Shown here: piece by piece, positions 1 through 9,348 of the stretch
Position numbering within the stretch: position 1 is the stretch's first letter
Layout of the letters: each line of letters begins with the position of its first letter
Assembly: GCA_003660555.1 (NCBI GenBank)
Contig: QMUK01000046.1
Span: 1-9,729 of the forward strand
Length of the DNA: 9,729 nucleotides
Reading direction: 5' to 3'
Source of the DNA: Thermococci archaeon
Lineage (GTDB): Archaea > Hadarchaeota > B88-G9
Notes under the pieces: generated by a model
Told to the model about the DNA's origin: nothing
Database searches by the model: none
What the model saw: the letters and a program-made list of their open reading frames with translations, nothing else
Program-made: the position numbers and the translations under genes

Positions 1-124
1 CGAGTACCAGATAAGAGTTGTAGCTAGTGCCATCTGGGAGTGGAATCAACTCATCGAAGAGTCTCCTGTCCCAGTGTTGAGCTCCTAAGTAATAAACTCC
101 CGGTTTAATCTCCACAGGGTGCAT
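1..124 (-). CDS. Flavodiiron protein (A-type flavoprotein), N-terminal fragment cut by window edge
   Basis: The last gene of a leftward operon; only about 41 N-terminal residues lie in the window. The stretch [18 protein letters not shown] followed by [12 protein letters not shown] is the typical start of the metallo-beta-lactamase-like domain of flavodiiron proteins (rubredoxin:oxygen oxidoreductase / FprA), whose family pattern is GvYwvGaiDWdlRdFH then GtTYNaYLi. These cytoplasmic enzymes use a diiron site and FMN to reduce O2 to water, or NO to N2O, with electrons from rubredoxin. The ATG (124-122) overlaps the rubredoxin stop TAA by one base (TAATG), so the two are probably translationally coupled. 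The diiron ligands and flavodoxin domain lie outside the window, so O2 versus NO specificity cannot be judged. The gene adjacency to rubredoxin supports the call strongly. Confidence 0.85.
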
Positions 125-291
125 TACTTTACCCTCTCGAAGTATTCCTTACCAACACCACAAATGGGACAAGTCCAATCCTCTGGTAAATCCTCGAAAG
201 AGGTCCCTGGTGGTATCCCAGAATTGGGATCTCCTTTCTCGGGATCGTACACATAACCACAAACGGTACATTTGTACTTGTCCATGTGCAT
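124..291 (-). CDS. Rubredoxin
   Basis: A small one-iron electron carrier of 53-55 residues, the usual rubredoxin length. Two CxxCG knuckles are visible: [16 protein letters not shown] near the N-terminus and [14 protein letters not shown] near the C-terminus. The four cysteines form the Fe(SCys)4 site, and the aromatic residues of the small core (YVYD, W, F) are present. The start is either ATG at 291 (MHMDKYKC) or ATG at 285 (MDKYKC). The upstream rubrerythrin stop overlaps the ATG at 291 by one base (TGATG), which favours 291. It sits between a rubrerythrin-like gene and a flavodiiron gene, so its likely job is to feed electrons to both for reduction of peroxide and O2. It is too short for most ORF finders but unmistakable. 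Confidence 0.95.
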
Positions 292-782
292 CACGCTCTC
301 AATAGCTCTAGGTATTTGTCATAGAGCCCCAATCTAAGAGCAGCTTCTAATTCACCTTCCAGAATATGATGATAATGGCTTTTTTCAACACTTGACAAAT
401 AGTTAAGTATTCTAGAGAGATCTTCTCTCCCTTCTTCTGCTTTCTTGGATAGGGATAAGTAGAAGTTCCTCTCTGATATCTCAACTTCCATGGCTTGTTC
501 AATTATCTCCGAAGTCTTCATGCCTTGTACGTATCTAATCTCTGGGAGAGGAATCGGACTTTTTTCTGGAATCTTCGGCTCTTTGCCTGCATACGTTTTA
601 TGGAAAAACAATCTCGGTATGTCTTCATGCTTCTTCTCCTCCTCAGACAGGAATCTGAATCTCTCCTTTGCTACGGGATTTGATACTTCTCTGAACAGTT
701 TCTCATAGGTTTCCCTACTTTCCATTTCGGTTTTAATAGCTATACTAAATAGATCACTTAAATCCAGTTTCCTCAAGTCCAA
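291..782 (-). CDS. Rubrerythrin-like ferritin-fold diiron protein (no rubredoxin domain)
   Basis: A four-helix ferritin-like protein of about 163 residues. Helix 1 carries [15 protein letters not shown], helix 2 [14 protein letters not shown], helix 3 [15 protein letters not shown] and helix 4 [15 protein letters not shown]. This gives the two ExxH-type pairs (EEEKKH and EKSH) and the extra glutamates expected of a diiron site. Classical rubrerythrin has a C-terminal rubredoxin domain. This one ends after helix 4, and the missing domain is supplied by the separate rubredoxin gene that overlaps its stop codon. The likely role is peroxide reduction in the cytoplasm. Start choice: a perfect GGAGGTGATC (794-785) sits just before a TTG at 782, so translation probably begins there (DLRKLDLSD). 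An in-frame GTG at 803 would give 170 residues but has no ribosome site. The family is clear; the exact substrate is inferred. Confidence 0.85.
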
Positions 783-784
783 GG

Positions 785-794
785 GATCACCTCC
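785..794 (-). promoter_or_regulatory. Very strong Shine-Dalgarno deciding a TTG start
   Basis: On the minus strand this reads GGAGGTGATC, full complementarity to the 3' end of archaeal 16S rRNA. From GGAGG to the TTG at 782 there are 7 nt, the normal spacing. It lies inside the longer GTG-started reading of the rubrerythrin-like gene, which argues that the longer reading is wrong. Confidence 0.75.
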
Positions 795-821
795 AGAATT
801 CACGTCATTACAAAATCGTCA

Positions 822-847
822 CCAATTAAAGCTTTTCTATTAAATAG
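822..847 (-). promoter_or_regulatory. Candidate TATA region for the rubrerythrin-rubredoxin-flavodiiron operon
   Basis: On the minus strand two A/T-rich TATA-like cores are visible, CTATTTAATAG (847-837) and GCTTTAATTGG (832-822). Either could serve: about 25 nt downstream of the nearer one gives a transcript start near 800, leaving a short leader that carries the GGAGGTGATC site. The whole gap to the divergent sfsA remnant is only about 80 bp, so both genes once shared this region. Which core is used cannot be decided from sequence. Confidence 0.4.
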
Positions 848-863
848 TTCAGTTGGAGGCTAA

Positions 864-1566
864 ATCGAGGAAGTCATCACAGTACCCTTGGGATTTAAGG
901 GAACTTTTATCTCTAGGCCAAATAGATTCCTAGAGATAGTACATCTACCAAGTGGAGAAGGGTGAAAGTACACATTCATGATCCAAGAAGCTTAAGGAAA
1001 TCTTAAAGAAAGGAAACGAAGTTCTAATCAGAAGAGTTGAGAATGAGAAGAGAAAAAACTAATTGGAATTTAATAGCAAAGAGAGCAGGTAGAGAATAGG
1101 TTTTCTTGCACTGGTTATCATCAAAGGATAGCTGAATGGCTATTACCCAAGAAAAGTCCTAGGGACTCCCATTAAAATTAAAAAAGAGAAGTGAAAATAG
1201 TATATTGAGAGAAAAAGAGAGGAAACATAGCAGGATAGAATAGATTTTCTCATCGAAACAGAGTTAGGGAGAACTTGGGTAGAAGTGAATGGATGTACGC
1301 TAACCAAGAGAAAAAATAGCTGTTTCTAAACGCACATACTGAGAGGGGTAGGATACACCTCTCCGAGCTGATGGAATTAATCTAGGGGAGAAATTCGCAT
1401 TAATCTTCTTAGTATTCAGAAGAGCCGATGTCTTTCTCCAAACTGGGAAATTGATTATAAGTTTTCAGAACTTTGTCAAAGCTTTAAAGATGAAATTGGA
1501 AATAAGAGCATTTCCTTTGCGTACAATGAGAATAAATTGTACTACTTGGAAGAGATATCGATATGT
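864..1566 (+). pseudogene. sfsA: Decayed sfsA (sugar fermentation stimulation protein family)
   Basis: No frame stays open, yet reading across frames recovers the SfsA family from end to end in the right order. The pieces are: FKGTFISRPNRFLEIVHL (from about 897), VKVHIHDPRSLRK (962), LKEILKKGNEVLIRRVENEK (991), TNWNLIAKRAGRE (1058), YHQRIAEWLLPKKSP (1116), DRIDFLIETELGRTWVEV (1234), AHTERGRIHLSELMEL (1332), ALIFLVFRRADV (1397) and SPNWEIDYKFSEL (1435). The family pattern is RPNRFla, vHlhDPGRLkElL, SRiDFLl..grtWVEVKg.TL, tERGr.HL.EL, FvvqR.dad.FsPNweiD. At least seven frame changes and several in-frame stops separate them, for example TGG to TAG at 1097 before VFLHW. SfsA proteins bind nucleic acid through an OB-like N-domain and a nuclease-like fold. 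The total length matches the normal 230-240 codons, so little was deleted. A GGAGG (855-859) precedes ATC at 864, in frame with the first piece, possibly a lost ATG. Confidence 0.88.
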
Positions 1567-1570
1567 CTCC

Positions 1571-2059
1571 TCACAAGAACTTGACCATTTCCCTTGCTTC
1601 TCTTCTGGGTGGCGGTTCTGGAACCTCCTCAGGATATCCGAGAGGAGTAATGGTTGCTATGTAGTGCTCAATTGGAATCCCTAACAATTTCTTCACCTCT
1701 TCTCCGTCCATGTCAGCTATCCAACAGGTCCCTAGACCGAAGAGCCAAGAGGCGAGCATGAAGTGATAAGCAGCAATGCAAGCATCCTGTTTGTATCTCA
1801 GAGACGTCTCTGGATCTGAGCAGATTGCTACAGCTAGTCTAGCTCTGCTAATGGGAGCACTACTCTCCCCTCGAAGAGATCCAAGGAATTCCATCATTTC
1901 TCTATCTCTTATCACTACGAAATAGTAAGACTGAGAGTTCTTCGAAGTCGGGGAATACCTACATATCTCGAATATTTTCCAGAGTGTTTCCTCCGATACT
2001 TCTTTGTCCTTGAACTTCCTAATACTTCTTCTAGAGGTTAGAAGTCTTTCCCCATCCAT
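1571..2059 (-). CDS. Nitroreductase-family FMN oxidoreductase
   Basis: A 162-residue protein of the FMN-binding nitroreductase fold. The N-terminal RRSIRKF (residues 10-16) is the phosphate-binding signature, SPTSKNSQSYYFVVI (about 36-50) is the second FMN segment, DACIAAYHFMLASWLFGLGTCWI the central helix and turn, and LGYPEEVPEPPPRR the C-terminal lid. These are cytoplasmic NAD(P)H-dependent flavoenzymes with varied substrates; the sequence does not say which. It is short for the family (often 170-220), with a compact middle. Start: ATG 2059 is preceded by GGAGGG with normal spacing. Its first 29 bases overlap the end of the upstream GAF gene in another frame, so the pair is an operon. Its stop lies next to the 3' end of the convergent sfsA remnant. 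Confidence 0.85.
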   Translation of the reverse strand: MDGERLLTSRRSIRKFKDKEVSEETLWKIFEICRYSPTSKNSQSYYFVVIRDREMMEFLGSLRGESSAPISRARLAVAICSDPETSLRYKQDACIAAYHFMLASWLFGLGTCWIADMDGEEVKKLLGIPIEHYIATITPLGYPEEVPEPPPRREAREMVKFL

Positions 2060-2531
2060 GTAACTCCCTCCAGATTGAGTACAGGATATCAGAGACCTCT
2101 CTAGCTACAACCTCCAAGAAGGAGACGTCCTCATCTGAGAATGGGGATAAATAGTGTGAGTCTATGTCCAATTCTCCTATGATTTCTCCCTCCTTGAATA
2201 CGGGAAGTACTATCTCTGATTTGACTTTAGGACTACAGGCCAAGTAGTTACTCTCCTTAGAAACGTCTTGTACAACTAAAATTCTCTTTTCCTTTGCAGC
2301 CCTTCCACAAACTCCCAGACCAAATGGTATTCTAACGTGCTCTGTGGGTTCTCCAGAGAATGGGCCGAGTACTAGCTCTTCCCCTCTAACTAGGTAAAAT
2401 CCCACCCATTGATAGTGTGGTATCTCTCGGAGAAGCTCGCACACCCTTTCTAGTTTCTTCCAGGCATTTTCTCTTCTTTCAAGGTTTTTTTCGATTTTCA
2501 TGAGTACTTCCTCATACTTATTTTTCGACAT
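2031..2531 (-). CDS. GAF-domain free methionine-(R)-sulfoxide reductase (fRMsr-like)
   Basis: A 166-residue single GAF domain. The motifs YQWVGFYLV (40-48), VRIPFGLGVCGRAA (66-79), YLACSPKVKSEIVLPV (96-111) and GELDIDS (119-125) mark the fRMsr branch rather than a signalling GAF. The family reduces free methionine-R-sulfoxide using cysteines equivalent to E. coli Cys84, Cys94 and Cys118. Here C75 and C99 match the last two with identical spacing, while the first is His65 (EHVRIP in place of ACVRIP). Two cysteines may still suffice for catalysis and disulfide formation, but the third is absent. The gene is followed, with overlap, by the nitroreductase, a plausible oxidative-repair pair next to the O2-detoxification operon. 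The start ATG at 2531 follows GGGGAGAGATTAG. The function is inferred from the motifs. Confidence 0.85.
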   Translation of the reverse strand: MSKNKYEEVLMKIEKNLERRENAWKKLERVCELLREIPHYQWVGFYLVRGEELVLGPFSGEPTEHVRIPFGLGVCGRAAKEKRILVVQDVSKESNYLACSPKVKSEIVLPVFKEGEIIGELDIDSHYLSPFSDEDVSFLEVVAREVSDILYSIWRELHGWGKTSNL

Positions 2532-2559
2532 CTAATCTCTCCCCTTGAGCTTCTGAGGT

Positions 2560-3366
2560 GTGGCATCACTACGGATCTGCCTCGATTAAACCTATCGCTA
2601 GGGTCTCTTCCAACTCCGTAGCTATAATACAAATGGTGCCAGCTAAGAGATTGTCCGAGTATGAATCCACCCAGAACAGAGTAATCCTCGAATACTCCCT
2701 CCGTAGATTCTCTTTTCTTCTAGCCCTCCGCTGTAACATTCAATGGCTCTATATCCAAAATAGTAAGCGAAGATGGGGAATAGGATTCAACACAGCAAGG
2801 AAGACCCATTCCCATTCAGACATCTCCAATAACTTAGCTCTGGACTTACTCACGTATGAGACTACTCCGGAGGTTATTACTCCCTCCAATAATCCTAGAG
2901 TAGCGTGCCATAGACCCAACTGGAACAGTGATTGACAGCCCATAGCCGAAGGACTTGGAAAATTTCTATATCGCAAACACAGCAGCTACAGTAACCCAAT
3001 CCATCCAGAAAGAAAAGAAATCTGCCATCCTGTCTGAGGATTTTCGTAAGACTTCACATGTGTAATGTCCCAAGATTACTGCCACGTCCCAATAGTCTAG
3101 GCGGTTATTCCACCGTCTCCGAAGGGGCATTGCACTATTAACACAGAGGTCGGGTATGCATCCGAGATATGGCCCTAGGAGGATTTCCGCAAGAGTCCCA
3201 TGAAGTGGGTTGAGATACCTCTAGAGGCCAATTGAGCATCTGGGGCCGCGAACATCCCTGCAGCTATACGCCTAGAAGACCAGCTTTGCCATCTACTTTA
3301 GCTTTTCTTTTAACGAGTAGCTACTAATACGCCGGAAAGTATGTAGAACAAGACAAAAACCTTCAT
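2560..3366 (-). pseudogene. Decayed CbiM-type cobalt/nickel ECF transporter gene, possibly with fused PDGLE/CbiN-like tail
   Basis: About 950 bases lack a sensible gene, but the minus strand read across frames gives an ordered CbiM/NikM series. It runs FVLFYILSGVLVAT (from 3366), VDGKAGLLGV (3296), QMLNWPLEV (3242), THFMG then GTLAEILLGPYLG (3199), TSVLIVQCPFGDGGITA (3150-3100), LDYWDVAVILGHY, and FQLGLWHATLGLLEGVITSG (from 2925) with SYVSKSRAKLLE. The family pattern is aaQMlNfPi..gtSGHllG, LaaillGPyag, vlivQ.l.FgDGGitaLG, h..iG..EgliTa. CbiM is the membrane substrate-binding unit of Co/Ni uptake. Further on, GGLEEKRIYGG and GVFEDYSVLGG resemble the PDGLE/CbiN tail, with less certainty. The N-terminal metal-binding MHIPDG start was not found, and many stops and shifts are present. 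The 75-codon run 2976-2749 is just its longest open fragment. No cbiQ or cbiO is in the window. Confidence 0.82.
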
Positions 3367-3481
3367 ATTTAGGAATCCATCAGGTATGTATGTGTAACTC
3401 TCTCGGCATCCCCGGTATTGTTGTTAGTAGGTATAATCTTCTTATCGGAGAAAAGAATCATGAATCACAAGACCTTTCGCT

Positions 3482-3490
3482 AGGAGGGAG
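3482..3490 (+). promoter_or_regulatory. Shine-Dalgarno deciding a TTG start for deoxyhypusine synthase
   Basis: AGGAGGGAG lies 5-9 bases before the TTG at 3496, with GGAGG 8 nt from the start codon. This supports TTG over the in-frame GTG at 3508. Upstream, ggtataatc (about 3430-3438) could be a TATA-like box for this gene, but it is weak. Confidence 0.65.
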
Positions 3491-3495
3491 AAGAA

Positions 3496-4449
3496 TTGAA
3501 TCCAGTGAAAGACTTGAATCTAAGAGCAGAGATGAGTGTGAAAGAGCTAATAGATCAATTTGGGTCATCCGGCGGGTTTACCACGAGAGAACTATTCCTA
3601 GCTTCTGAGATATTAAAGGAAATGATAAATGACAATGAATGTGTCTCTTTCTTGTCATTCCCAGCTTGTATAGTTGCTACGGGAGCTAGAGGTGTAATAA
3701 GAAAAATGGTTCAAGAGGAAATGATCGACGTCCTAGTGACTACTTGCGGAACTCTAGATCATGACCTTGCTAGAGTTTGGAGAGATTATTACCACGGGAG
3801 TTTCGAACTAAATGACGAAGAATTACGGAGAAATGGAATAAACAGAATAGGAAATGTGTTAGTCCCAAATGAGAGCTATGGTTTGATTCTGGAGAGGAAG
3901 ATGAAAGAGATTTTGGAGGACATTTACTATGAGGGATTCAGAGAAATTTCTACTAGGGAATTAGCCTGGGAAATAGGAAAGAGATTAGAAAAAGAGGAAA
4001 GAAAGGAAACTTCCATCGTTTACTGGTGTTACAAGAACAGGATTCCGATTTTCGTTCAAGGAATAACAGACGGAGCAGTCGGAAGCCAAATATGGCTCTT
4101 CAGACAAGAGAGAAGGGACTTCTCAGTGAATGTATTTAAGGATGAAGAAGAGCTGAGTGAGATAATATTCAACTCTAAGAAGACCGGAGCACTAATAATA
4201 GGTGGAGGAATAAGTAAGCATCACACAATATGGTGGAATCAGTTTAAAGGAGGATTAGACTACGTGATATACGTCACTACGGCTGTGGAGTGGGATGGCA
4301 GTCTTTCAGGAGCTAGGATTAAGGAGGCGATTTCTTGGGGAAAAGTGAGTGAGAAAGCCAAAAAGGCTTCTGTTTACGGTGATGCAACACTAATACTGCC
4401 ACTAATGGTCTCATATGTGCTGGACATCCTTGGTAGGGACGAAAAATAG
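3496..4449 (+). CDS. dys: Deoxyhypusine synthase
   Basis: A 317-residue enzyme that transfers the aminobutyl group of spermidine, with NAD, to a lysine of translation factor aIF5A, the first step of hypusine formation. Family signatures run in order: SGGFTTREL (25-33), ATGARGVIRKMV (61-72), VTTCGTLDHDLAR (81-93), NRIPIFVQGITDGAVG (181-196), LIIGGGISKHH (233-243), YVTTAVEWDGSLSGAR (259-274) and EAISWGK (277-283). K241 in GGGISKHH matches the catalytic lysine of the human enzyme (Lys329), and EWDGSLSGAR is a substrate/NAD pocket segment. The length is typical of archaeal forms and all motifs are intact. It starts at TTG with a strong ribosome site. It is divergent from the cbiM remnant and convergent with the propeller lipoprotein gene (30 bp between stops). 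The C-terminal half is the better conserved. Confidence 0.96.
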   Translation: MNPVKDLNLRAEMSVKELIDQFGSSGGFTTRELFLASEILKEMINDNECVSFLSFPACIVATGARGVIRKMVQEEMIDVLVTTCGTLDHDLARVWRDYYHGSFELNDEELRRNGINRIGNVLVPNESYGLILERKMKEILEDIYYEGFREISTRELAWEIGKRLEKEERKETSIVYWCYKNRIPIFVQGITDGAVGSQIWLFRQERRDFSVNVFKDEEELSEIIFNSKKTGALIIGGGISKHHTIWWNQFKGGLDYVIYVTTAVEWDGSLSGARIKEAISWGKVSEKAKKASVYGDATLILPLMVSYVLDILGRDEK

Positions 4450-4461
4450 GAAAATTTATGG
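4438..4461 (-). terminator. Candidate T-rich terminator of the propeller lipoprotein gene
   Basis: On the minus strand, 20-40 bases past the lipoprotein stop, the sequence contains AAATTTTCC then TATTTTTCG, two T-runs (4 and 5). Archaeal polymerase often ends at such runs without a hairpin. The second run overlaps the last codons of the convergent deoxyhypusine synthase gene. Confidence 0.35.
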
Positions 4462-4479
4462 ATCTAAAGGGTCACACCT

Positions 4480-6609
4480 CTATACTTGGCTTGGTTTAAC
4501 TCTCCACACCGAATAGCCTCTGGTTCCAGCGAAAAGATATCCGTCCTCATAGACTAGGTTCCTTATCTTCAAGGTCAACAACCCATTGTTGAATTCCTTG
4601 AGTCTAACTCCTCCAGATTTCAATTCATCGATTGTTGTATAGAAGACCCCCTCTCCATCAGTTGAGAGGAATATTATTCCTTTCTCCCAAGCTATAGCCA
4701 TATCCGTGTATTTCTTATTCGGTAATTTCACCCTAATCTCCTCTTCTGAAAGAAAATCTGGCTTATAAACCAGAGATTCTGGAGTCAGGGCTATGAACTC
4801 TCTATTATTAACAGAGAAGTTAATGGCATACTCTTCATATATTGTTTTTGTCACTCTCCCATCGTAAAAGTAAATCTTCCCTTTCTTCCCGGACCATCTC
4901 CATCCATCTCCTAAGTATTTGCCTTCATAGGTTTCGAAGAAGAGTTTCCCATCGAACTTCCTTATTAATGGTACTCCAGAGCCAAAGTCGATCTTCGAGA
5001 CCTCCATTGTTTCTAGATCTAATACATCTATTCCGTTATCCATGTTTCCTGCGTAGAGTTTACCCTCTGAGATAACCATTTCATAGTGAGGCCCACCTAT
5101 CAATTTCTTCACGCAATTCCTTCCACCTCTCACGAGGCAAGAAGTATCTATTCCAAAGACACCGTCTCCCCTAAATGGACTGGGATACCCAGTGGATATC
5201 AACAGGTCGTACTTACCTTCTATTCTCCTCTCTGGAGACACGGCGCACCAGGGGTAACCTGGTAGCTTTCCCCCGCCTACTTCCTTTCCTAATCTCAGGT
5301 CTATGCCCTTCATCCATTCTTCTCCATTATTAAAGGCTATTTCAGTTCCAGAGACTGCTGTAACGACTATGGTTCCCGAGAGAATTCCAGACTTTATTGG
5401 GTTAATAGCGTTTATGGTATCTCCAAAGACTCCTTCGTAAGAATTACTCCAATTTAGTCCTCCGTCCATAGTTTTTTGGACTGCTTGTCCTCCAACAGTT
5501 ACTAAAGCGTATTTAGTAGCTTCTCCACAGCTAGTTTTCACTTTTTCATCTCCGTAAAAAGCTATAGAAGTAGCGTAATTTGAGTGGATTTTCCAATCCT
5601 TTAGTTCCCCATTCCAACATCCTACACCAAAGAAGGAATTTCCGAACCCTTTTGCAGAGAAAGAATAGAACCTAGACACTCCTCCGCAACCGAACCAGAG
5701 CCTATTCTCATTAATTGGATCTGGAACTAGGAAATAGAATATGGAATTAGTGTTTTTTCTTCCAGGGATCTTTACCTGTTCCCACTTCCAAGTATTTCCA
5801 ATTTTCCTCCCGATGTACCACCAGTCCCCTATGGTTCCTACGTAGAGATTGTATTTTCCGTCCACGAAGACGTTAGTGGTCTTCTTATCCAGTATCTTTC
5901 TCCATCTCTTCCCATCTGTGGAGAAAAATAATCCGGAGTATGGACTGGATATGAACAGATATGGATATTTCGCCGACACGGTTATTTCCTTATTAGCAGG
6001 AACCTCAAGCTCTAATATGGTCTTATCTCTCTTAAGGACAAAAAGTCTCCCATCTCCCGGCCTCCCATTTCTATATTTCTTATCTAGGACTGCAGTAAAG
6101 AACAATTCGTCCTTGTATTTGGCTAGAGAAACCAAGTGGTACGTCCCATCATCGATTTCAGGAAATCCTGTTTTCAACTTAGTCCAGCTCTCCCCTTCAT
6201 CCAAGCTGTACCAGAGTCCCTTGTTAGACCCAGCGTAGAGCACTTCTCCTATTTCCTCCATGTCATAGAAGTACACGTCGGTGAAGTCCTCTTGTTTTAT
6301 TATTTCCCAGCTTTCTCCACCGTTTTTACTTCTCCAAACTCCCCCGAACCCATGGGAGACGAAGAGCACACCACTTCTAGTGGAATATATGAAGTGCATG
6401 TCTCCACCGTCCATTCCGTTGAGTTGCTCCCATTTCCCAGACACCACTCCTAATCTCTTCCTTGTTGAATCTACCGGCCTCTTTTCTTCAATTTTTTTAG
6501 TTTTTGGACCGTGAATCCTCTTCTTATCAGGCTTTTCAATTTTCTCAGAGACACATCCCAATGAGGAGGCGACGAGCATTACAATTATGAAATAGACGAC
6601 CCCCCTCAT
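4480..6609 (-). CDS. Secreted lipoprotein with BNR/Asp-box beta-propeller repeats
   Basis: About 709 residues. The N-terminus MRGVVYFIIVMLVASSLGC is a short basic start, a hydrophobic run and a lipobox-like SLGC with Cys19, followed by a charged K/E-rich linker to about residue 55. It is therefore probably anchored on the outside of the membrane. The rest is a series of beta-propeller blades. Asp-box turns of the S/TxDxGxxW kind are visible: SKNGGESWEII (95-105), SLDEGESWTKL (135-145), STDGKRWRKI (230-239), TMDGGLNWSNS (380-390) and STDGEGVF (649-656), with GT/AGS-type blade strands between. The size suggests two propellers. Such folds occur in sialidases, sortilins, GH74 glycanases and Ycf48-like factors; catalytic residues of those enzymes were not recognised, so no activity is assigned. 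GAGGTG (6621-6616) supports ATG 6609 over the GTG at 6618. C-terminal NNGLLTLKIRNL then LFAGTRGYSVWRV is a closing blade. Confidence 0.82.
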   Translation of the reverse strand: MRGVVYFIIVMLVASSLGCVSEKIEKPDKKRIHGPKTKKIEEKRPVDSTRKRLGVVSGKWEQLNGMDGGDMHFIYSTRSGVLFVSHGFGGVWRSKNGGESWEIIKQEDFTDVYFYDMEEIGEVLYAGSNKGLWYSLDEGESWTKLKTGFPEIDDGTYHLVSLAKYKDELFFTAVLDKKYRNGRPGDGRLFVLKRDKTILELEVPANKEITVSAKYPYLFISSPYSGLFFSTDGKRWRKILDKKTTNVFVDGKYNLYVGTIGDWWYIGRKIGNTWKWEQVKIPGRKNTNSIFYFLVPDPINENRLWFGCGGVSRFYSFSAKGFGNSFFGVGCWNGELKDWKIHSNYATSIAFYGDEKVKTSCGEATKYALVTVGGQAVQKTMDGGLNWSNSYEGVFGDTINAINPIKSGILSGTIVVTAVSGTEIAFNNGEEWMKGIDLRLGKEVGGGKLPGYPWCAVSPERRIEGKYDLLISTGYPSPFRGDGVFGIDTSCLVRGGRNCVKKLIGGPHYEMVISEGKLYAGNMDNGIDVLDLETMEVSKIDFGSGVPLIRKFDGKLFFETYEGKYLGDGWRWSGKKGKIYFYDGRVTKTIYEEYAINFSVNNREFIALTPESLVYKPDFLSEEEIRVKLPNKKYTDMAIAWEKGIIFLSTDGEGVFYTTIDELKSGGVRLKEFNNGLLTLKIRNLVYEDGYLFAGTRGYSVWRVKPSQV

Positions 6610-6670
6610 TCGACACACCTCTGGTTTCCAACCACTCGACGAACTGTGTTGAATTCCTTTTCCGGTCCTT

Positions 6671-6690
6671 GAGAATATAAAGAATATTTT
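6671..6690 (-). promoter_or_regulatory. TATA-box promoter of the propeller lipoprotein gene
   Basis: The minus strand reads AAAATATTCTTTATATTCTC; the TTTATATT core (6681-6674) is a good archaeal TATA box. A start about 25 nt downstream, near 6652, would leave a leader of about 40 nt containing the GAGGTG ribosome site before ATG 6609. No other gene lies between. Confidence 0.55.
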
Positions 6691-6761
6691 GGTCTATCCA
6701 ACGACAGTTTGAGTGAATCCTAGGAAAAGCTCTGAACTTATCAGTTGAATATCCATAGATC

Positions 6762-7760
6762 ATGGGTTCCTATCTGCTTAGGTGGTGCGGGGGACGGGAT
6801 TTGAACCCGCGCAGGCCTACGCCACGGGACCCTCAATCCAGCATTTCCTCAAAGCCAGATTTCATCTATTCTCTACGTGAAATCCAGAGGCTAGATGGGC
6901 TAGAGTCTAACTTTAGAGTAAAGAACCTAGGGATAAGATACTCGGAAATAAGAGAAGAGTTCAAGGAGTGGCTGTCCAGGTATTCAGAGGAGTACTCCAA
7001 GGAAATACTCAGATATCTGGATAGATACCTAGGAGATTTCCCCTTGAAAAGCGCAAAAGATCTCTTAAAATTGGTGAATTCAGTCAAATCGGGAAGAAGG
7101 CATCTATGCTATTCCATAAGGGTTCTAGTTAATTTCTTGGAGGAATTCGGTCTAATTGGCAAATCGGATGCAAACCTAATAAGGAGTTTAGTGAAAATAC
7201 CGAAGAGTGGAGTAGACAACTACGTGCCACGTAATGAGGAGGTTCTAGAGGCGTATTCAAAAATAGAAAAAGAGGAAACTAGATTAGTGTTCGAGCTCCT
7301 CATGTTCTCTGGAATGAGAATAGTGGAAGCGTCCGAGCTCCTTAGCAAGTTCGAGAAATCCAAACTAATAGCCTTGGAGGAAATTGGGATATCTAGGTAT
7401 CCCATTTCCCTCCTTAGAGGAACTAAGAGAATCTATTATGCCTATATGCCATTTGAGTTCTCTTTAAAGCTTAGAAGGATCAGAATGAGTCCGAAAGCCA
7501 TAACTAAGAGGCTAATCAGAGTTGGATTGGCTGGGAAGTACCTCAGGAAGTGGAACTACAACTTCCTCATAGAGAGAGGGGTTCCCGAGAGCGTAGCCGA
7601 TTTCATCCAAGGGAGAGCTCCGGTATCGGTGGGTTCGATGCACTACTTGGCCAAAGTCAGACAGGCAGACATCTGGTATTCCAAGGTATCGGGGGAAATG
7701 GTTAGTCTAATTAACAGAAAAAGAGATGGATCCAACAATGAGATTAGTGATACACAATGA
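6762..7760 (+). CDS. SSV-type archaeal tyrosine recombinase, int(C) fragment reading through the tRNA half
   Basis: A 332-codon ORF whose residues 8-27 or so are the tRNA-Leu half read backwards (WCGGRDLNPRRPTPRDPQ). The remainder is a full archaeal phage-type integrase: core-binding helices (about 60-150), then the catalytic domain with R186 (MFSGMRIVEA), K223 (GTKRIYYAY), the KxxR box K259/R262 (KYLRKWNYNF), ADFIQGRAPVSV, H294 and the nucleophile Y306 (DIWYSKV). This layout, with the att site inside the integrase N-terminus, is typical of SSV-type elements, where integration splits int into int(N) and int(C). The first seven codons (6762-6782) are chromosomal flank, so the true N-terminus should be at the other end of the element. 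The ATG at 6762 has no ribosome site. The catalytic domain is undamaged, unlike its neighbours. Likely a trapped int(C); a leaderless, flank-started active product is possible but unproven. Confidence 0.87.
   Translation: MGSYLLRWCGGRDLNPRRPTPRDPQSSISSKPDFIYSLREIQRLDGLESNFRVKNLGIRYSEIREEFKEWLSRYSEEYSKEILRYLDRYLGDFPLKSAKDLLKLVNSVKSGRRHLCYSIRVLVNFLEEFGLIGKSDANLIRSLVKIPKSGVDNYVPRNEEVLEAYSKIEKEETRLVFELLMFSGMRIVEASELLSKFEKSKLIALEEIGISRYPISLLRGTKRIYYAYMPFEFSLKLRRIRMSPKAITKRLIRVGLAGKYLRKWNYNFLIERGVPESVADFIQGRAPVSVGSMHYLAKVRQADIWYSKVSGEMVSLINRKRDGSNNEISDTQ
6783..6837 (-). other. 3' half of a tRNA-Leu gene: attachment site (attL/attR-like) of an integrated element
   Basis: On the minus strand the segment runs from the anticodon loop to CCA. 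It has an anticodon (GAG at 6834-6832), a stem half, a long variable arm (GTGGCGTAGGCCTGC), a T-arm GCGGG-TTCAAAT-CCCGT, the acceptor strand CCCCCGC, discriminator A and an encoded CCA (6785-6783). The long variable arm with A73 fits archaeal tRNA-Leu; a shifted stem would read the anticodon as UGA (Ser), but archaeal tRNA-Ser normally has G73. The 5' half (D-arm and GCGGGGG acceptor strand) is absent: past 6840 the sequence is integrase coding DNA. It is not a working tRNA but the duplicated 3' half left at one end of an integrated genetic element. Confidence 0.85.
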
Positions 7761-8439
7761 TCAGAGAGCTCGACCCATAGCGACCCCATCGTGAATCTAG
7801 AGGTGAGTAAATCTTGGTCTCTCCCAGTTTAGCTTGGAATTGGAGACACCTTAGACCTCACTTACTAGCTAGAAAGAGTCAAGAAGTTCTTCGTTATGGT
7901 ACAAATGACGGGGGCCGAATTCTCTGAATAGTGTATTAACTGACTTAGATATCCGAACAAATGTTATAATCTCGGATCAAGAATCGTTAGGGGGAAGTAA
8001 TAGATGATTTGGATATGAAAATAGAATGACCAGTCTCTCGAAGATTCGGCTCGTCTAATTGCAACCTCTCACTAGGTCCGAGTTTCCCAGATATTTAAGA
8101 GACTGCTCTCTGTAAATACACTCATGGTTCATACCGGAAGAACTTGGGCATCTAATCAATCGTTCCAAATGTAGAGGAGCTTCCCTAGAATAGAGATTGT
8201 CTTGCCCAAGGACTTTTACTTCTACGATTCCCCCTTCTGCTTTTAGACTTCTGCATCGTCTGAGATAAATTACGAATCCTCTTTTGTTCTTTTCAATTAT
8301 TATTAGATTATCGTGAATCACTTCTCTGAATTGGGATTCTGCTGTGAAGCTTCACATAGTGGAGGATCCATCTAGACTAGTAAAGCAATCGCCAACGGAT
8401 ACGTTTGGGAAAGTACTGGCCTGAGAGTGGTAGGGAATA
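7761..8439. other. ORF-poor stretch in the element, no gene recognised
   Basis: About 680 bases between int(C) and the helicase remnant. The longest run is 88 codons on the minus strand (8321-8055; MIHDNLIIIEKNKRGFVIYL at the N-terminus), in a pyrimidine-rich part of the plus strand. It has no ribosome site that I can see and matches no family I know; it may be a fragment of a decayed minus-strand gene or chance. On the plus strand near 7940-8030 a short piece (LTDLDIRTNVIISDQESLG) could belong to the linker of the helicase further right, but this is weak. Stops are frequent in all frames, so I consider the stretch decayed. Confidence 0.4.
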
Positions 8440-9348
8440 GAACGTGCCGATTTACTGGTATGCCATCTGCCTGAATGTGGGAAGTTCCGCATACAAACAA
8501 GAGGGATCAATTGAAGGGGGCACATCCTTTTACTGCCATGGAGATATCAGCAGTTACGCACGTAAGTTCGTCATACCTAGTTTGGTTTTGCGACTTCCAA
8601 GGACTTTAAACCAAAGAAACCTAGAGAACTACGCACGATGCACGAATTCACAATAGGTCATTTTAGGTATAAAGAGCCTGAATAGGTATTCAAAACAGGA
8701 AAACTAAGGGTTAGGTCTCGTATTCCCCAGATGGATAATCGGCAGTGATTCGTAGCGGAGGAGGGTTCTGGATATGTTTCGAATGCGAATGCCCTCCGGA
8801 GCTAAGAACAGATAGACACAAACTCCTATGGAAATGAATGCACTTCTCCTCTAAGGGGTCCATTCCATTTAGGTCATGTTTTCAAGACAGATATTCTCTC
8901 AATTTCCATAGAGAGTGAAACTTATCTCACAGCAACTGACATTAGCTTTTGGTCTCCTTACTCTATGCTATACTTGGGGAGTAAGCCAAGCCCTCGGAAT
9001 AAGGAGAGGAGACCAGACGGGTGCCTCCATCCAAGCGACAGGGGAATGACGCTAGTACTCTTCGACAAGTCTCTAGAGGGGCAGGAGATGCGAAGTATAA
9101 TGAACGAGGAGAATCTGAGGGAAATCCTCAAGGAGACTTTCTCAATAGTCAGTAATTGCACATGTGGGCCAGAGACTAGCTATGGATGTTTGAGGGCTTA
9201 CGACAACCAATTCTGTCATGAATTACTAAGGAGAGGACTAGTCTTGAACTTCCTTGAAAGAGTTCTACCAGAGGAGCTAATTAATCAAGCAAGCGTTACC
9301 CACGAGTTAACACCATCTCAGAGTAGTGTTGACCATAAGAAAAGTTAA
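8440..9348 (+). pseudogene. Decayed C-terminal part of a DUF1998/zinc-cluster superfamily 2 helicase
   Basis: The C-terminal region of the COG1205-like helicases (DEAD/DEAH motor plus metal-binding Cys cluster plus DUF1998) is recovered across frames: ARKFVIPSLVLRLPRTLNQR (about 8560), FECECPPELRTDRHK (8778, frame 3), GNECTSPLRGPFHLGHVFK then TDILSI (8830-8901, frame 1), GVSQALGIRRGDQTG (8978, frame 2), GCLHPSD and LVLFDKS (about 9019-9075, frame 1), and finally CTCGPETSYGCLRAYDNQF then HELLRRGLVLNFLERVL. The family pattern is HlGh.f.TDvL, Gas.alGirr.DldGcL, vlfD..pGGaGh, C.CG.etSCy.CLR.Y.NQ..H.lL.Rg. The GGAGH loop is eroded to LEGQEM. Frame 1 is open from 8806 to 9348, but part of it (about 8970-9018) is out of frame, so the apparent 127-codon gene starting at 8965 is not real. 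The motor domains were not found; before 8560 the assignment weakens. Confidence 0.75.

Follow-up and report, generated by a model that had tools for sequence, protein, structure and literature searches.

Two contig ends of a draft archaeal genome as the probable junctions of a mobile element with an SSV-type integrase gene split at tRNA-Leu(GAG)

Suicidal integrases are defined by a PF16795 domain together with an attP site located within the integrase gene (PMC8371274). The free element carries an unsplit integrase gene that is split on integration, and the separated halves recombine poorly or not at all, although excision can be promoted by a related complete integrase (PMC8371274). SSV1, SSV2, pXQ1 and XQ2 all have the PF16795 domain and an attP inside the integrase gene, and their int(N) and int(C) segments are separated at a tRNA gene whose 3′ part is duplicated. 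The pT26-2 family of the Thermococcales also uses a suicidal integrase at the 3′ ends of tRNA genes, and the integrases of the Archaeoglobus pleolipovirus ApPV1 and the Aeropyrum ovoid virus APOV1 contain tRNA-derived peptides (ECGGRDLNPRTP, WCGGWDLNPRRPTP) of the same kind as the one described below. Two integrated elements in Archaeoglobales MAGs, L086 and L087, have an int(C)/tRNA-Leu junction of the same type as the locus reported here.

The window analyzed is the whole of contig C46 (9,729 bases, forward strand), part of a draft archaeal genome of 1,295,439 bases in 150 contigs that is 91% complete. It very probably includes the boundary, on the int(C) side, of an archaeal mobile element that has integrated and encodes an SSV-type (type I, 'suicidal') tyrosine integrase, and a second contig, C3, would carry the other junction. 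The features are collected in Table 1.

Table 1. Coordinates and supporting evidence for features of the window and for a second int(N) on contig C86
Feature	Position	Strand	Evidence or remarks
Host chromosome flank	1..6782		Includes the genome's only deoxyhypusine synthase
int(C), C-terminal part of SSV-type integrase, in frame with tRNA-Leu 3′ part	6762..7760	+	ORF, PF16795, PHROG 5127, SSV1 integrase structures
Attachment-site copy at int(C) junction, tRNA-Leu(GAG) 3′ part, CCA to anticodon stem	6783..6839	-	57 bases vs C3:216-272
Phage_integr_3 catalytic domain	7221..7688	+	PF16795; R186, K222, R262, H294, Y295/Y306 kept
Element DNA without long open frame, decayed or non-coding	7761..8964		Stops in all six frames
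C-terminal remnant of DruE-like helicase	8965..9348	+	DruE1 positions 1621-1688 of 1776, E 3.1e-9
C-terminal part of SbcC-like ATPase, off contig end	9383..9727	-	mad3 E 2.1e-6; LmuB E 1.1e-5; SbcC-like PHROG E 1.7e-4
Decayed second int(N)	C86 (L052) 2080-2391		Adjoins tRNA-Leu(UAA); ~80% DNA identity to C3 int(N)

The int(C) reading frame has 332 codons, and its first residues (MGSYLLRWCGGRDLNPRRPTPRDPQ) are encoded through the antisense strand of the tRNA-Leu 3′ part. The flank to the left of the tRNA stretch supplies the ATG and the first seven codons, and int(C) could therefore be translated; a 306-codon open frame has a chance of ~6e-10 at the local base composition. Residues 154–309 match positions 2–158 of the 161 in PF16795 (Phage_integr_3; E 7.7e-47; score 159.6 bits, cut-off 27 bits), and the score in the whole-genome profile search is 161 bits. 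Residues 6–310 match the PHROG 5127 integrase (E 2.4e-50), and the protein both matches and aligns to the SSV1 integrase catalytic-domain structures 3uxu, 3vcf and 4dks. The residues listed in Table 1 occupy invariant columns in an alignment of int(C) with five relatives, and the catalytic set of SSV-type integrases (R, K, R, the H/Y region and Y) is kept. The preliminary description of this DNA had proposed an in-frame fusion of the reversed tRNA-Leu 3′ half to a complete integrase catalytic domain, and the reading frame, the nearly end-to-end PF16795 match and the 57-base tRNA match all bear this out. The tRNA stretch starts with the encoded CCA and takes in the GAG anticodon (window 6832–6834). 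Its end had been put at 6837, two bases short of the 6839 indicated by comparison with the genome's tRNA-Leu(GAG). ARAGORN finds no intact tRNA in the window, as expected because only the 3′ fragment is present.

A scan of named genomes identified related integrases at 52 loci. Archaeoglobales, Thermococcales and Thermoplasmata account for most of them, Woesearchaeota, Nanoarchaeota and Methanosarcinales for a few, and two are on contigs assigned to bacterial bins. In a 53-row tree, the window integrase and that of L086 form a pair (support 100/96, 62% identity), and identity to that of L087 is only ~41%. We considered membership of a pT26-2-like integrase clade and rejected it, as the pair with L086 falls outside a 97/88 clade that contains pT26-2 and ApPV1; the deeper forks of this tree are weak. 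Identity to the pT26-2 integrase is 34%, and no other pT26-2 gene is seen in the element DNA of the window. ApPV1 (36% identity) and APOV1 (31%) are on separate tree branches and differ further in that no virion gene is seen in the 2 kb of element DNA. The SSV2 integrase is distant (~30% identity), and the window host, as far as is testable, is not a crenarchaeon of the group that carries SSV1, SSV2, pXQ1 and XQ2. Its phylum also differs from that of the Archaeoglobaceae, since the Archaeoglobaceae genome L103 is related to it only at the level of domain. Among 28 genomes of the host's own phylum, including the source, the best other PF16795-type match scores 39.5 bits, compared with 161 for the window.

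When the DNA of the window reading frame is compared with its own genome, it matches the left end of contig C3 at 97% over 60 bases, and the 57 bases of the tRNA stretch are shared with a single mismatch. An intact tRNA-Leu(GAG) predicted by ARAGORN is located there on the minus strand. On the plus strand there is an int(N) reading frame, already open where the contig begins (in the frame of base 3) and entering the tRNA, which reads SVTLREEVVRLLREESKRKGIGLNELILKLIEDRPRTVLGDVDKKSALRIRRPYGFPPTVNPQESDSGSFL followed by the tRNA-coded WCGGRDSNPRRPTPRDPQS, and this peptide is in the identical frame in the window int(C). There are 71 codons before the tRNA, a length that would be open by chance in ~2% of cases. 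Joined at the shared stretch, with int(N) before it and int(C) after it, the two halves form a single open frame of 396 residues, whose N-terminal end is missing because the left end of C3 falls within int(N). Both junctions and their agreement in frame can be read directly from the two contigs. By itself, int(N) gives no significant hit in domain and PHROG profile searches, matches nothing among phage records and does not align to the N-terminal region of one related integrase, so that its resemblance to a ribbon-helix-helix protein is no more than an impression. As in SSV-type integrations, the gene appears to be split into int(N) and int(C), each in the same frame with the tRNA-Leu 3′ part, and the intact tRNA is restored on the int(N) side (C3:216–303). 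An intact tRNA-Leu(GAG) fused to int(N) had been predicted to lie elsewhere, and C3:1–303 contains exactly this arrangement, in the same frame as int(C); the contrary case of an intact tRNA-Leu(GAG) lacking int(N) did not occur, as the C3 copy carries it.

Chromosomal genes are present on the outer side of both junctions. Outward of the tRNA on C3, away from int(N), there is a peptidase-like ORF followed by rpoD, S11, S4 and S13 (names assigned from the sequences by eye), and other genomes of the phylum likewise have rpoD next to tRNA-Leu(GAG). To the left of the window junction is the deoxyhypusine synthase (3496–4449; NF002294, 449 bits), a single-copy gene in this genome. Together these place the element to the right of 6783 on C46 and to the left of C3:216. 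The host flank of the window also contains two long stretches without plausible genes (804–1570 and 2532–3495), which are unusual for a 1.3-Mb archaeal genome and represent decayed genes or non-coding DNA. The 712-aa product of the gene adjoining the junction (4480–6618, minus strand) starts like a lipoprotein, and its sortilin/beta-propeller match is weak (E 7e-7, short of the Pfam cut-off).

The only mismatch between the two copies of the tRNA stretch is at tRNA position 57 in the T-loop, which is A in the window and G on C3. Position 57 of tRNA-Leu(GAG) is A in ten other genomes of the phylum (one of the ten copies, in L078, was recognized by sequence and not called by ARAGORN), which suggests that the window stretch is probably the host's original tRNA 3′ end and that the C3 copy was brought by the element. 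With this assignment, the simplest reading would put the strand exchange on the anticodon side, somewhere from 6803 to 6839, in agreement with the crossover in the anticodon loop reported for SSV1 (PMC8371274). Later mutation of one copy explains the mismatch about as simply, and we therefore take position 57 as support and not as proof. Synteny did not reveal the empty site; the DNA following tRNA-Leu(GAG) differs between relatives.

We propose that attP was inside the element's integrase gene and would have been a copy of the tRNA-Leu(GAG) 3′ part of the host. The integrase gene would then have been split when the element recombined with the tRNA gene, probably in the anticodon stem-loop or beside it. 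At the window junction (6783–6839) the host's old tRNA 3′ end would have been kept and fused to int(C), and at the C3 junction an intact tRNA-Leu(GAG) would have been rebuilt with the element's copy of the 3′ end and fused to int(N). The element would run rightward from 6783 off the contig end and enter C3 from its left end. This anatomy, as read from the bases, fits each of the published steps for suicidal integrases. We infer that one and the same element ends on C46 and on C3, and that it would lack efficient excision unless a complete integrase were supplied in trans. The edge of an integrated element of SSV type that the preliminary description had placed here is thus supported by the catalytic domain, the C3 junction, the frame match and the shared 57 bases. 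The same architecture is found complete on a single contig in L087, which counts for the model. In this Archaeoglobaceae MAG, a complete 3.7-kb element (10000–13772) is bounded by an exact 52-base repeat, its copies 3.7 kb apart, and ends at an intact tRNA-Leu(UAA). Several facts count against the model. C46 and C3 are separate contigs that no other contig joins, and a search found no overlap of their ends with other contigs; int(N) has no significant domain match and a ~2% chance of being open over its 71 codons; and the genome contains two copies of int(N) and one of int(C).

The second int(N) was found because the end of C3 also matches C86:2127–2272 (80% DNA identity), beside tRNA-Leu(UAA). 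Its frame is broken by stops and small length changes, and it likely derives from an older (fossil) integration of a related element at another tRNA-Leu. A search of the genome found no second strong int(C). A XerA-like ORF on contig C78 was considered as the missing partner and rejected, as its 271-aa recombinase frame scores weakly against PF16795 and is surrounded by ordinary genes. On C86 (L052), positions 1–960 upstream of the decayed int(N) contain adjacent genes with nucleotidyltransferase-domain (PF01909) and HepT-like (PF01934) products, the usual MNT/HEPN toxin-antitoxin pair. The same contig has a 104-base direct repeat (166–269 and 1032–1135, 866 bases apart) whose copies are 85% identical.

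The presence of this second int(N) at tRNA-Leu(UAA) with only one strong int(C) lends some weight to the window and C3 being a rearranged remnant, in which int(C) and the C3 int(N) come from different integrations, or were parted by recombination between related elements, with no single element between them. Exchange between related integrated elements is reported in Thermococcus (PMC8371274), and the DNA adjoining int(C) looks decayed. However, the window stretch has the GAG anticodon, and it matches 57 bases of C3 compared with only ~43 of C86. In addition, the C3 int(N) and the window int(C) are both open while the C86 int(N) is broken; we consider a rearranged remnant improbable. An artefact of assembly or binning, with a chimeric or foreign contig setting an integrase beside unrelated chromosome, is less probable still. 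What speaks for it is that the assembly is a draft in 150 contigs, that C46 lacks flanking sequence and that the start of C3 falls within int(N). Nonetheless, the two junctions agree in both base sequence and frame, which would be rare for a random chimera, the genome's only deoxyhypusine synthase is on the window, and the listed contamination is only 0.61%. That the element disappeared long ago and int(C) is an old domesticated fragment, retained by the host in another role, merits hardly any credence: the open frame of int(C) has a host-supplied ATG while the adjoining element DNA looks decayed, but the C3 int(N) is open too, and a difference of only one base between the att copies is consistent with a fairly recent integration.

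Approximately 2 kb of the integrated element is visible in the window, and within it no hallmark structural or replication gene of Fuselloviridae, Pleolipoviridae or pT26-2 is seen. The N-terminal part of the DruE-like remnant is not open upstream, and no second copy of the SbcC-like ATPase was found in the genome. DNA methyltransferase genes are near the integrase in L086, L087 and L113, and are shown to be inside att repeats only in L087, which differs from the window element in having a type II methyltransferase and another ORF where the window has other remnants. No similarity was detected between the cargo of the related integrase loci and the window element. The DruE-like and defence-ATPase remnants, together with the methyltransferases of related loci, thus make a defence cargo plausible here, and L087 is possibly a minimal restriction-modification island moved by a suicidal integrase. 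In another Archaeoglobaceae MAG (L103, JALWDS010000008.1; 86–2397 and 8810–10894), a stretch with the integrase C-terminus recurs unchanged ~8.7 kb further on, with the integrase truncated in one copy and full-length in the other; this repeat is a tandem or assembled-circle form of another such element.

The two int(N) copies, open at tRNA-Leu(GAG) and decayed at tRNA-Leu(UAA), and the tRNA 3′ part that they share, raise the tentative and rather doubtful idea that the genome preserves a target switch by a suicidal integrase, in which elements carried the tRNA 3′ half between isoacceptors while changing specificity. The GAG and UAA genes are identical from the CCA back into the variable arm (~42 bases, by eye), and this arm is unlike the one in the CAA and CAG tRNA-Leu genes of the same genome or in tRNA-Leu(GAG) of relatives. 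Identical 3′ parts are found between isoacceptors in relatives too (e.g. CAG and GAG in G002), and the GAG/UAA identity alone is therefore weak evidence of transfer by elements.

The element is a clear new example of the ordinary suicidal-integrase class in a less studied host, and the basic arrangement of an integrase split at a tRNA is otherwise well known. It provides a matching junction pair for a suicidal integrase in a phylum without another strong match to the family among the genomes sampled, and a single base, at position 57, would distinguish the host-derived side from the element-derived one. A published idea proposes specificity switching among tRNAs whose variable arm is long, and the decayed int(N) at a second tRNA-Leu makes it testable in one lineage.
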